Virus record (IMG/VR): IMGVR_UViG_3300050132_000111
Span: 1-45,298 of that record
Strand: one strand, 5' to 3'
DNA length: 45,298 nucleotides
Origin: a virus
A program made the translations under genes and the position numbers. The notes beneath the pieces were generated by a model, which was not told the origin of the DNA, made no database searches, and saw only the letters and a list, made by a program, of their open reading frames with translations. Position 1 is the stretch's first letter. Each line of letters begins with the position of its first letter. Positions 39,818 to 45,298 of the stretch are shown here, piece after piece.

Positions 39818-40261
39818 TTAAGTAGCAGCCTCAGCATCCGCCGTCTTCTTCAACTTCGGAACTGTGCCGATCGCGCGGTGGTGGTCGCAGTAGACGCCAA
39901 CCGCCGAATTTCCGCAGTAGGCGTGCGTTGGTTTTTGTTTGTTCCCCCACATCGGCCAACAACAACCACGCGAACCAGGCGCGGCCTTTGGTATAGCCAC
40001 CGTCGGGATCGTGTTCTTCGCCCGCAGTTCGGCGCGGGTCAGGCGTTTGCGTTTGGCACCATCCGGATTGGGTTTGATCGGATTTTCGCGGCGTGTGAGC
40101 TTCATCCGATTGGCTTTGCCGACGATCGACCCTTTACCGCGCCCGAGTATGCGGGCGATTTCTAGGGCTGGGAGCTTGTCGATATCCCACAATTTTGCGA
40201 GGGTTTCGGCGTCGGAGTTTGTCCATGGGGTTTCATTTGGGCGGGGAGCGGTGGTTTTCAT
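39818..40261 (-). CDS. gcrA: GcrA-like cell cycle regulator
   Basis: 147 residues. The N-terminal helix-turn-helix reads ETPWTNSDAETLAKLWDIDK, then PALEIARILGRGKGSIVGKA. The C-terminus has RGCCWPMWGNKQKPTHAYCG and YCDHH, the two cysteine/histidine blocks typical of GcrA. Host GcrA binds sigma-70 RNA polymerase at promoters carrying methylated GANTC sites. The phage copy overlaps by four bases the gene of a methyltransferase fusion, which suggests joint control of methylation-dependent transcription (inference). Confidence 0.9.
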   Translation of the reverse strand: MKTTAPRPNETPWTNSDAETLAKLWDIDKLPALEIARILGRGKGSIVGKANRMKLTRRENPIKPNPDGAKRKRLTRAELRAKNTIPTVAIPKAAPGSRGCCWPMWGNKQKPTHAYCGNSAVGVYCDHHRAIGTVPKLKKTADAEAAT

Positions 40262-42777
40262 TCAGCCGCTTCCACGCTCAACATATCAAAGAGCGACGGC
40301 ATCGAACATTCGCGCTCCACCAGCTTCATCCCCCGCACGGCATCGCGGTAATATTCAGCATTCAACTCAACAGCACGTCCCTTTCGCCCCATTTTGATAG
40401 CCATATTCGGAACGGTGCCCAACCCACCGAACGGATCGAAAACAATATCTTCTTTGCTGGTGTATCGCCCGATAAGCCGTTCGACAATATCGATTTGAAA
40501 AGGGCAAATATGCTGCGAAAGATTGCGCTGCGACTGCTCGGCGTTGAGCGTTTTCATCCTGAGAACATCATGCCAAACATCAGGGTCATGCGACCCTGGT
40601 GCAACAGACATGAATGTCGAAGGCAATCGACCTTTTGCATCCAACGCATTTGCAACATCAACATGCTGCTTATAGTCATAGATTTGTTCCGCAGACATGC
40701 GCGCGAATGCGCCAGCCAAGACATCAGGGCCAAGCCCATCAAACTCATCGGCGGTCAAAAACCGGTTGCCGGATGACCTCCAGAATGAATGAGCATCAAT
40801 CTGCCACTGCCCGCGCGTGTATTCTTTCTTGTCCTTCTTGACGGGTTCATCCGCATAGGCGCGGCTCTGATCAGTCGGGAGCTTGCGGAACAACAAGACG
40901 TATTCAGGACATCCAACTCCCATCTTGGAACTGTCTTTGCTGTTCTCGGTCCAGCCTAGGCGATACGTCTGGTTATTTTCGCGCACAACGTCCGTAACAA
41001 CCGTGATCATGCCGCAATAGATGAAGCCATGCTTGCGATAATGCGCGATGCAATCAGCGTGGAACGGCTCGACACTTGGCATTCCATAGCCAGTGACATT
41101 CCCAAACCGGATACGATCCTTTGTATGAACGGCCATCACGCGGCCCGGCTTGAGGATGCGCAGCAGGTTTGGCGACAGATGGTCCATCTGTTCGAAAAAC
41201 CGCACGTTGTCGTCATTGTGGCCGAAATCGTTATAGCTGGCAGAATATTCATAGTGGTTGCCGAATGGGATTGACGTGAGAATCATCCCCACGCTGTTAG
41301 TTTCCATCATGTCGCATTCAAGAACCGTGTCATTGTTGGCGACCATCCAACCCTTTCCGCTTTCCTCAGTGCGTGTCACGCCAATAGTGCGAGCCAAGTC
41401 TTGCGCCACGCTCATGCTGGATAGGCCGTGTTGTGCGATCAATGCCGACATGCGGTCTGTCAGGGTATTATGCTCATTCCATTTCCGTTGCAGCGTGCGC
41501 CAGATTTCGCGCTCCGTCTCGCACATGATGATGTCAATGCGGCACTGATGCGGTTGCAGGAAGCGGCAGATGCGATGGATGGCCTGTATCAGGTCGTTGA
41601 ACTTGTATCCGATGCCCAAAAAGATAGCTCGGTGACAATGACGCTGGAAATTGCAGCCCGATCCGCTGATCTCGGGTTTCGTGGCGAGGTATTTCAACTC
41701 ACCTTCCGCAAACGCAATCACGCGTCTTTCGCGTTCATCCATGTCAAGCGATCCGTATACCTCGGACGCTTCCGGCAATGCCGATTTGATCGCATGACGT
41801 TCCGCCTCAAGGTCATGCCACAGAATGAAGTGATCGTCCGGACTTTCTGCGATGATCTCCATCATCTTGGCAACGCGCGCCGGGATTGACGTGCGTTTTT
41901 CGGTTGCAGCATCTTTCAATCCAAGCGCGCTATCACGGATTAACCGGCCCTGGCCGTCGCGGTCTGCTGTGCCTTGCAGGTCAAGCGCCTGAACTTCATG
42001 CACGCGAACATCCAGTTCCGGCATATCGTATCCGGCGTCATCGTATCCCATGTCGCTCGGCTTCTGGACGAACGCCGACCATGAATGCAACCATGCATGG
42101 AATTCGCCTTCCATGTGGGGATATACGGTCAGGTTGTTCGCCTGCTCACTGTCGCGCTGGAAAAACCGCGTGAGAGCCTGCCCGGTGTCCATGACTCCGA
42201 GGAAGCCGGCATAATGGATCAGTTCCTTGTAGCTGTTTGGGCTTGGCGTTGCGGTGGCAACGAACCGATATGGAACACGCGCCAGCAACGTCAGGAATTG
42301 CTGATAGGTTTTTGATCCATAGGACCGCAGCACGCTCGCCTCATCCAAAGTCACAATCTGGAACAAGTCAGGATCGAGCTTGCCATCGCGCATGCTCTCG
42401 TAGTTGGTCAGATAGATGCCATCGCCGGCCACTTCATCAGTCTTGCGGACGAATGCAACCTTGATGCCGAGCTTTTCCGCGTCAAGGCGGAATTCATGCC
42501 GAACGCCGAGCGGGACAATCACCAACGCACGTTTTGCATTGGGCGCATTCGCCAACAACAACCGCGCAATTTCGAGTTGCATAAATGACTTGCCGAGGCC
42601 AAATGCCGCGAAGATTGCAGCACGTCCCTTTCGACATGCCCACTCGACTATATCAAGCTGATGCGGCTTGAGCATCGGGTTAATATCAGATCGTGCGATC
42701 CTCACACCATCATCGCGGTGCATCGTGATTTTAGATTGCAGCATCGCCAGATAAGCTGCAGCGTTCAAAGTGCCCAT
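40258..42777 (-). CDS. Fusion of SNF2/DEAD-like helicase and DNA methyltransferase
   Basis: 839 residues. Residues 1-460 are a superfamily 2 helicase: FAAFGLGKSF (Walker A), IVTLDEASVL, VATATPSPNS, and motif VI QAIHRICRF. Residues 490-839 are an amino-methyltransferase with motif IV first (ILTSIPFGNHYEY, SIPF in place of the usual PPY/F) and motif I later (VFDPFGGLGTVPNMAIKMGR), the beta-class order. Also present is YRLGWTENSKDSSKMGVG. Probable role: translocating, DNA-modifying enzyme acting on phage or host DNA. This fusion is a recurring phage family. It is coupled to GcrA. Confidence 0.88.
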   Translation of the reverse strand: MGTLNAAAYLAMLQSKITMHRDDGVRIARSDINPMLKPHQLDIVEWACRKGRAAIFAAFGLGKSFMQLEIARLLLANAPNAKRALVIVPLGVRHEFRLDAEKLGIKVAFVRKTDEVAGDGIYLTNYESMRDGKLDPDLFQIVTLDEASVLRSYGSKTYQQFLTLLARVPYRFVATATPSPNSYKELIHYAGFLGVMDTGQALTRFFQRDSEQANNLTVYPHMEGEFHAWLHSWSAFVQKPSDMGYDDAGYDMPELDVRVHEVQALDLQGTADRDGQGRLIRDSALGLKDAATEKRTSIPARVAKMMEIIAESPDDHFILWHDLEAERHAIKSALPEASEVYGSLDMDERERRVIAFAEGELKYLATKPEISGSGCNFQRHCHRAIFLGIGYKFNDLIQAIHRICRFLQPHQCRIDIIMCETEREIWRTLQRKWNEHNTLTDRMSALIAQHGLSSMSVAQDLARTIGVTRTEESGKGWMVANNDTVLECDMMETNSVGMILTSIPFGNHYEYSASYNDFGHNDDNVRFFEQMDHLSPNLLRILKPGRVMAVHTKDRIRFGNVTGYGMPSVEPFHADCIAHYRKHGFIYCGMITVVTDVVRENNQTYRLGWTENSKDSSKMGVGCPEYVLLFRKLPTDQSRAYADEPVKKDKKEYTRGQWQIDAHSFWRSSGNRFLTADEFDGLGPDVLAGAFARMSAEQIYDYKQHVDVANALDAKGRLPSTFMSVAPGSHDPDVWHDVLRMKTLNAEQSQRNLSQHICPFQIDIVERLIGRYTSKEDIVFDPFGGLGTVPNMAIKMGRKGRAVELNAEYYRDAVRGMKLVERECSMPSLFDMLSVEAAE

Positions 42778-43851: not shown

Positions 43852-44064
43852 ATGCCCCAACCCACCATCCCCACTAACCTTCCGCCCGGAGCATTCGGCT
43901 TCATCGTGACCCGCCCGGATCGTGCGGAGCGGTTGGCGCTGTATCGTGCGGATGGCTCGCTCAATTGCAGTTTCGCGCAGGATGCGACGTTGGCCGATGC
44001 GCGCGGGATTTTGGCGACGGCTGGTTTTGATGTTTGTGAGGGTGGGTTTGTTGTCGCTCGTTAA
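43852..44064 (+). CDS. Small hypothetical protein, first in rightward operon
   Basis: 70 residues from the ATG at 43852, with AAAAGGAA six bases upstream. PTNLPPGAFGFIVTRPDRAE, then LALYRADGSLNCSFAQDATL, is a compact beta-rich protein. Its 3' end overlaps the methyltransferase start by about 35 bases. Family not recognised. Confidence 0.65.
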   Translation: MPQPTIPTNLPPGAFGFIVTRPDRAERLALYRADGSLNCSFAQDATLADARGILATAGFDVCEGGFVVAR

Positions 44065-44725
44065 GCTCAAAGTGCTCGATTTGTTCAGCGGCATTGGCGG
44101 ATTTTCTCTCGGCTTGGAAAGAACCAACGGCTTTGAAACCGTAGCCTTCTGCGAGATCGAGCCTTTTCCCCGCGCCATCCTGGCGAAACACTGGCCCGGA
44201 GTGCCCTGCTATGACGACGTGCGAACCCTCACCGCCTCCCGCCTGGCAGCAGGCGGAATTGTTCCAGATGTCATCTGCGGAGGGTTCCCGTGTCAGGACA
44301 TCAGCGCGGCAGGATTACGCATCGGCATTCAGGGCGCGCGCTCTGGTTTGTGGAGTCAGTATTCCCGCCTTATTGGCGAGCTTCGACCGCGATGGGTCAT
44401 CGTGGAAAACGTCGCAGACTTGCTTGTTAGGGGGATGGGCGTTGTTCTCGGAGACTTGGCCGCGATCGGGTATGATGCAGAGTGGCATTGCATATCGGCT
44501 TCCGCCATTGGTGCAGATCACATCCGAGATCGAGTGTGGATCATTGCCCACTCCAACGGCGCAGGGGATTTCACGTTTGTCGAGCGGTGGCGGAAGTCAC
44601 GCACGCCAGAAGTGGGCAAAAATGCTGCCGCGCATGATGCCGACGATCACGGCGCACGATCACAGGGGGGGGGTGTCGTCCAGAAAGATCGGAGAAAATG
44701 CGGGAGACATCAAGCCGTGGGCTAG
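44030..44725 (+). CDS. C5-cytosine DNA methyltransferase, motifs I-VIII (lacks motif X in this frame)
   Basis: 231 residues from an ATG at 44030; TTG starts at 44048 or 44051 after GAGGGTGGG are possible. Motif I DLFSGIGGFSLGL (residues 17-29), motif IV GGFPCQDIS with catalytic Cys88, motif VI VENVADLL and motif VIII DRVWIIAH are intact. After about residue 175 the frame becomes non-family text, and the expected motif X lies in the overlapping frame. Either the enzyme is split between two polypeptides or the gene carries a frameshift. Confidence 0.8.
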   Translation: MFVRVGLLSLVKLKVLDLFSGIGGFSLGLERTNGFETVAFCEIEPFPRAILAKHWPGVPCYDDVRTLTASRLAAGGIVPDVICGGFPCQDISAAGLRIGIQGARSGLWSQYSRLIGELRPRWVIVENVADLLVRGMGVVLGDLAAIGYDAEWHCISASAIGADHIRDRVWIIAHSNGAGDFTFVERWRKSRTPEVGKNAAAHDADDHGARSQGGGVVQKDRRKCGRHQAVG

Positions 44726-44924
44726 ACTTGCCTTCGGTTCTCCGGCTGCTTTTCCCGGACTCGACGGGGCTGGTTCGCCCGTCTTGGGCAGAGGCGAGAA
44801 TGGGCTACCCAATCGGGTGGACAGAATGCACGCCATTGGAAACGCCGTCGTCCCCCAAATCCCGGAGCTAATCGGCCGCGCCATTCTTCGTGCCGAACAC
44901 GCCCGCACCAACAAGGACATCTAA
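44211..44924 (+). CDS. Overlapping-frame methyltransferase companion (carries motif X)
   Basis: 237 residues from 44211, or 218 from the ATG at 44268. In a frame different from the C5 methylase but on the same strand it reads DGSSWKTSQTCLLGGWALFS, then ETWPRSGMMQSGIAYRLPPL and LPTPTAQGI. This text is familiar from proteins annotated next to phage C5 methylases. Its end NRVDRMHAIGNAVVPQIPEL is C5-methylase motif X. Overlap with the methylase frame is over 500 bases. It may be the second subunit of a split enzyme, comparable to the small subunit of M.EcoHK31I. Confidence 0.65.
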   Translation: MTTCEPSPPPAWQQAELFQMSSAEGSRVRTSARQDYASAFRARALVCGVSIPALLASFDRDGSSWKTSQTCLLGGWALFSETWPRSGMMQSGIAYRLPPLVQITSEIECGSLPTPTAQGISRLSSGGGSHARQKWAKMLPRMMPTITAHDHRGGVSSRKIGENAGDIKPWARLAFGSPAAFPGLDGAGSPVLGRGENGLPNRVDRMHAIGNAVVPQIPELIGRAILRAEHARTNKDI

Positions 44925-44949: not shown

Positions 44950-45298
44950 ATGAACAATGCAAAGCCCGGCTACGTCATCATCGACGGACGCGAGATCGCG
45001 ATTGAAGAATTCGCGCGCGAGATCGGTGTGAAGTGCGAATATGGCTCCCTCGACCTGCGGGGCTACGCGCACCCGCTGCCGGCCGGGCTCACCAGCGTCG
45101 GCGGCTCCCTCGACCTGCGGGGCTACGCTCACCCGCTGCCGGCCGGGCTCACCAGCGTCGGCGGCTACCTCGTCCTGGAGGGCTACGCTCACCCGCTGCC
45201 GGCCGGGCTCACCAGCGTCGGCGGCTCCCTCGTCCTGCGGGGCTACGCGCACCCGCTGCCGGCCGGGCTCACCAGCGTCGGCGGATACCTCGACCTGC
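44950..45298 (+). CDS. Solenoid repeat protein, partial
   Basis: From the ATG at 44950 (GGAGAG 4-9 bases upstream) the frame is open to the window end, 116 codons. After 31 unique residues (VIIDGREIAIEEFAREIGVK) the protein consists of 20-residue units GSLDLRGYAHPLPAGLTSVG, resembling leucine-rich/beta-solenoid repeats known in some phages. The units are nearly identical at DNA level, implying recent duplication or gene conversion. Function unknown; the fold would offer an extended binding surface. Confidence 0.75.
   Translation, partial: MNNAKPGYVIIDGREIAIEEFAREIGVKCEYGSLDLRGYAHPLPAGLTSVGGSLDLRGYAHPLPAGLTSVGGYLVLEGYAHPLPAGLTSVGGSLVLRGYAHPLPAGLTSVGGYLDL
45043..45298 (+). repeat. 60-bp tandem repeat, over four copies
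   Basis: Units at 45043, 45103, 45163, 45223 and a partial one from 45283 have exactly 60-bp period and differ at few positions (for example GGCTCC/GGCTAC and GACCTGCGG/GTCCTGGAG). The array is in frame with the 44950 gene and continues beyond the window. Confidence 0.92.

Follow-up and report, generated by a model that had tools for sequence, protein, structure and literature searches.

A C5 cytosine methyltransferase with one subunit read in another frame has so far been known from single restriction-modification systems, namely M.EcoHK31I, whose β polypeptide is read in an alternative frame. In PMC3404938, M.EcoHK31I (YGGCCR) is described as having a larger subunit (α) with motifs I-VIII and X and a smaller polypeptide with only motif IX, and the target-recognition domain (TRD) is placed in α. 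M.AquI is likewise described there as two polypeptides, with the break after motif VIII, α comprising motifs I-VIII and β motifs IX-X (PMC3404938).

The DNA considered here (the window; 45,298 nucleotides) is a tailed-phage contig with genes for tail sheath, portal, terminase and head protease. Near its right end two reading frames, A and B, overlap on the same strand, as the initial annotation had noted. We propose, with a probability of about 0.74, that this locus represents an overprinted, M.EcoHK31I-like α/β C5 cytosine methyltransferase which in the present copy is displaced at a tract of nine G (G9). The features relevant for this proposal are:

44030-44725, plus strand: open reading frame A, matching PF00145 (E 1.3e-36; profile positions 1-166 of 324)
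44030..44664, plus strand: homologous part of frame A, putative catalytic subunit (α) with motifs I-VIII, from PF00145 and the A profile
44198..44213, plus strand: candidate internal start of B (GGAG at 44198-44201, ATG at 44211)
44211-44924, plus strand: open reading frame B (+1), with a match to phrog_1008 and a motif X end at its C-terminus
44211..44664, plus strand: homologous part of frame B (+1), putative N-terminal and middle portion of the overprinted protein (β), from phrog_1008 and the B profile
44665..44673, plus strand: G9 tract, site of the one-frame displacement of both frames, from the jump of the A and B profiles
44665..44725, plus strand: tail of frame A beyond the G9 tract, non-homologous (zero score with the A and B profiles)
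44674..44871, plus strand: third frame (C), reading the motif IX-containing C-terminus of the B protein, from the B profile
44676..44924, plus strand: downstream part of frame B, reading the motif X-containing C-terminus of the A protein, from the A profile and the phrog_363 C-terminus

Frame A exhibits the PF00145 catalytic core with motifs I, IV, VI and VIII, and the motifs initially assigned to it are thus borne out. The N-terminal part of frame B had been attributed to a family associated with phage methylases, and residues 17-159 indeed match phrog_1008 (‘DNA methyltransferase’; E 1.3e-20); its own C-terminus corresponds to that of phrog_363 and phrog_32758, where motif X lies, and a Pfam search with frame B of the window returned no match at E<=10. 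The homologous part of frame B overlaps motifs IV-VIII of frame A. Motif X (HAIGNAVVPQ, 44829-44858) is located in frame B, as annotated, and motif IX (VRPSWAEARMGYPIGW, 44773-44820), which had been missed, in frame C, so that motifs I-X do not reside in one polypeptide. The impression that both frames are coding-like also holds: within frame A the +1 frame is open over 172 codons, a length attained by 22 of 2000 synonymous shuffles, and it scores 200.1 bits with the B-protein profile of relatives as compared with a mean of 100.6 and a maximum of 137.2 bits for 500 shuffles. Elsewhere in the window, positions 40258-42777 (minus strand) encode an 839-aa protein with a helicase-like and a DNA methyltransferase part (phrog_16, phrog_67), and at 45043-45298 a 60-base tandem repeat runs for 4.3 copies up to the contig end, encoding repeated LDLRGYAHPLPAGLTSVGG in the next downstream frame.

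Similar genes are present in Microcystis Mwe-JY08, Synechococcus S-H1 and Ssp-JY42, Sulfitobacter phiGT1, Vibrio phages and others. The relatives from known phages have a single long A frame comprising motifs I-VIII and X, with B as the +1 frame inside, and in most of them B ends with the motif IX-like sequence LNPxWVEWLMGFPxGWT. One set of 52 out of 56 loci (L008, L047, L052 and L058 were dropped) was found by means of B, and its open B frames are thus partly a matter of choice; relatives were therefore sampled by frame A alone (80 viral contigs, 77 distinct), which avoids choosing by B. At motif VI, a +1 ORF is present in all 77 distinct loci; it comprises 125-363 codons (median 250), as compared with a median of 35 codons for the +2 frame. 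The pair of motifs IX and X was left unassigned in 7 of the 77 genes, and of the 70 in which both could be assigned, all but L082 and L123 place IX in B and X in A (68 genes); these two show the same kind of displacement as the window. A homologue with one uninterrupted frame, which the initial annotation had regarded as evidence against a split enzyme, does exist for A: the close homologues L074, L119/L156 and L003 exhibit motifs I-VIII and X in an uninterrupted A frame, yet they retain the overlapping B frame, and it is motif IX, not X, that is found in B of L119/L156 and L003.

In 30 of 69 genes the first B start is preceded by a Shine-Dalgarno-like sequence of at least 4 bases, versus 12.9% of control positions. 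All nine B proteins tested match phrog_1008, and searches of B proteins against Pfam and NCBIfam yielded nothing useful. Annotations of the locus usually give just one of the two genes; in Vibrio phage 1.291.O (L013) the B frame is annotated (hypothetical protein) and the A frame is not, while its near relative L007 has the A frame annotated. In Streptomyces phage Samy (L008) and in L152, motif X is found together with IX in the B frame, and A stops after motif VIII.

In the mechanism we favor, the α frame would contribute motifs I-VIII as the SAM-binding catalytic core, followed by a linker and the motif X helix, while β, read in the +1 frame from a probable internal start codon, would span from about motif IV to just before X and carry target-recognition-like PTPxA blocks along with motif IX. 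The two chains may then assemble into one enzyme methylating cytosine in phage DNA, most likely in order to evade restriction; in the window both frames would be off by one at the G9 tract. An AlphaFold model of the A protein of a relative (68 rows) is consistent with this arrangement: residues 1-168 and the motif X helix (residues 252-271) are predicted with confidence, residues 170-251 mostly with pLDDT <50, and Foldseek identifies M.HaeIII and M.HhaI as top matches (165 columns). The disordered stretch of A corresponds to the region where B reads the PTPxA blocks and motif IX. For B alone the model is poor (pLDDT 55, pTM 0.21), which would fit a partner-dependent chain and proves nothing; a target-recognition role is accordingly not backed by a fold. 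Motif IX of B aligns with motif IX of single-frame methyltransferases (hhalign 96.8%, E 2.5e-10), and the main frames of the single-frame actinophage and plasmid enzymes L011, L012, L014 and L150 score 25-42 bits with the B profile, versus <4 bits for the main frames of the other 21 loci. No alignment was obtained between motif IX of B and canonical Strep or T4-like enzymes, and the only matches of the B profile in the PDB are DRM methyltransferases, at motif IX and with E 0.86. Taken together, B would most likely be the chain that brings target recognition and motif IX to an enzyme made of two chains.

It is also conceivable, albeit unlikely in our view, that B is a real overprinted protein which is not a subunit but an independent factor (a regulator, an anti-restriction protein, or other). 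B-like N-terminal sequence is kept where motif IX is in the main frame (L012, L014, L150 and L191; B-like N-terminal frames in the first three), suggesting that β may do more than supply motif IX; moreover, Firmicutes-phage enzymes with their own motif IX also have a +1 ORF (38 of 39; see below), and B alone lacks a confident fold. What argues against an independent factor is that B of most relatives holds precisely the motif IX that A lacks, at the place where A is predicted to be disordered.

In the window, the placement of motif X departs from the M.EcoHK31I-like layout. The G9 tract, the window's longest run of G or C, separates two regions with different profile matches. On its 5' side, frame A is matched by the A profile (345.5 bits) and frame B by the B profile (201.6 bits). 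On its 3' side, the A profile instead matches frame B (55.8 bits) and the B profile matches frame C (52.3 bits), with no score for the other frames in either case. Neither frame A after 44664 nor frame B past the tract is thus a continuation of its own upstream family. The nearest relatives, L074 (74% identity over 816 bases) as well as L119 and L156 (identical match values, 76% over 617 bases), have unbroken frames where the window has the G9 tract, and motif IX is continuous within frame B of L119/L156. A break near motif VIII, at the possible error site 44540-44560 suggested initially, is ruled out by both profiles being in frame through 44664. Furthermore, the G9 tract was found in none of the 286 other loci fetched, which makes an error or a slippage mutation likelier than a programmed switch. 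The reported split is hence most likely due to a sequencing or assembly indel or to a slippage mutation; as the window reads, neither the A nor the B protein would be makeable whole by ordinary translation, and motif X in frame B is, judging from the profiles, a local accident of this copy superimposed on a genuine overprinted pair. The placement of X in frame B was thus correctly recorded but is peculiar to this copy, and of the initial proposal, an overprinted two-subunit methylase or a frameshifted gene, what stands is overprinting, which is general in the family, together with a displacement, now located at G9. Joint shifts of the A and B frames by one, as in the window, were also seen in L047, L056, L082 and L123.

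Two alternative accounts of the tract appear improbable to about the same degree. In the first, the split of the window is natural and functional, with A providing motifs I-VIII and B motif X, as in M.AquI or the pair of Streptomyces phage Samy. Samy and L152 do have X in the B frame and an A frame ending after motif VIII, but there IX and X share a frame, whereas motif IX of the window is alone in a third one; moreover, both profiles jump at a single 9-base tract and the nearest relatives have X in A. In the second, programmed slippage or phase variation at the G9 tract switches or joins the products. The displacement does occur exactly at the longest G/C run of the window, but none of the 286 other loci fetched has the tract, and L082 and L123 (as well as L047 and L056 by inspection) are displaced without sharing it.

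Selection on frame B was assessed in the relatives. Since conserved A residues force part of B, raw similarity is misleading: shuffled A genes still average up to 69 bits with the B profile, so that raw B similarity was rejected as proof of coding and frame B was judged only against synonymous-shuffle nulls of A genes. Of 72 non-redundant A-selected genes, 54 have a +1 ORF longer than in synonymous shuffles at P<0.05 (18 did not reach this level, and 5 of the 77 had been left out as too alike); for the +2 ORF the count is 0 of 72. Identity in the +1 frame over 69 genes is 0.391 versus 0.261 for the synonymous-shuffle null (z 116; L082, L123 and L128 were dropped, leaving 74 of 77, and a 90% filter removed 5 more). 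By region, z is 3-5 before the B start, up to 72 over motifs VI-VIII, and 68 at motif IX, where the B reading is more conserved (0.61) than the A reading (0.50); from VIII to IX, too, conservation of the B reading exceeds that of the A reading. Identity in the +2 frame is likewise raised (0.357 versus 0.264), as expected if wobble bases are held, and identity alone cannot pick the frame; the choice of frame rests on stop avoidance and ORF length. At four-fold wobble positions in A codons, identity is 0.344 upstream of B and increases to 0.653 across VI-VIII and to 0.854 across IX (chance 0.266). Of 25 diverse loci scored with the B profile, 20 have a real +1 frame that beats 200 of 200 shuffles; the remaining 5, of the Streptococcus type or T4-like, showed no excess over shuffles. 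As a negative control, T4-like enzymes had a longer-than-shuffle +1 ORF in 0 of 6 cases. The substitution patterns that the initial annotation had suggested examining in both frames thus indicate that frame B is genuinely coding in the family, with selection acting on both frames in the relatives. A single methyltransferase gene carrying a frameshift, with B as an untranslated shadow of conserved A residues, is accordingly highly improbable: A frames are continuous in relatives and the shadow is considerable, but the +1 frames exceed all 200 shuffles in most diverse loci, stop avoidance is confined to the +1 frame and wobble conservation to the B interval, and T4-like enzymes lack such an ORF.

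The arrangement extends beyond phages. Among 49 bacterial loci from several phyla, the split of IX in B and X in A is seen in 20, a single locus has both motifs in A, and 28 are unassignable by pattern; the plasmid sample was small (4 records). In addition, a +1 ORF spans motifs IV-VIII in C5 enzymes of Firmicutes phages that have a motif IX of their own (L209-L288, L143-L145); its median length is 175 codons versus 30 for the null (P<0.05 in 38 of 39 non-redundant genes; 44 of 83 genes were skipped). These ORFs mostly end with SLSDILE..V.EKYFLS, and those of L143 and L144 match phrog_16143; searches against Pfam and the PDB led nowhere. T4-like enzymes have an in-frame DILE segment to which the SLSDILE segment bears a weak resemblance (hhalign 66.9%, E 5.3e-5). 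There is also a similarity between the ORF and B, extending over 112 columns (98.3%), part of which may be shadow. A role of its own for the overprinted N-terminal half is thereby kept open. It is tempting to speculate, at somewhat less than even odds, that the overprinting is old and gave C5 genes a second, +1 protein, now present in phages of many hosts and in several bacterial phyla. At least two classes of this protein would exist: in one the +1 frame includes motif IX, and the other is the Firmicutes-phage class with SLSDILE..YFLS after motif VIII. The N-terminal half of the +1 protein (over IV-VIII) would have arisen de novo and have its own role in the enzyme. If so, the pair would rank among the most widespread and oldest gene overlaps of prokaryotes and their viruses.

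The arrangement described here would be a dual-coding design that is under selection and widespread among phages and bacteria, and it provides a large natural data set on two proteins evolving in one DNA stretch. One prediction is that many annotated phage methyltransferases would be inactive if cloned as single ORFs; naturally split enzymes may also lend themselves to targeted-methylation tools. A search of the open-licence PMC literature found no paper describing the overlap, which is weak evidence of absence; PMC8903798 and PMC7017920 mention neither methyltransferase nor methylase, and a literature match for phrog_1008 proved to concern phrog_10089. The label of phrog_1008 and phrog_16143 (‘DNA methyltransferase’) is silent on overprinting upon another methyltransferase gene.

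When compared with M.AquI, the relatives of the window differ in having X in α, only IX in β, and an overlap of hundreds of bases; in the window itself IX and X are in different frames, so that there is no β containing both. Closer to M.AquI are Samy and Mycobacterium phage Nyxis (L140), genes 78/77 of which resemble an AquI-type split; in L140 the +1 frame at motif VI is interrupted and still scores above shuffles with the B profile, possibly representing a decayed B. The comparison with M.EcoHK31I, already drawn in the initial annotation, is apt: α with I-VIII and X and β with IX recur in the 68 of 70 assignable relatives (of 77), and the +1 ORF within the α gene, at all 77 A-selected loci, parallels the β frame of that enzyme. 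The window's own frames, as they stand and with their pieces scored apart, do not show this layout. Unlike in M.EcoHK31I, TRD-like blocks are read in B, and the distribution encompasses phages and many bacterial phyla. The likeness to M.EcoHK31I is thus, in our analysis, one of layout, and the enzymes described here appear as its phage-borne, widespread and visibly dual-coding counterparts.
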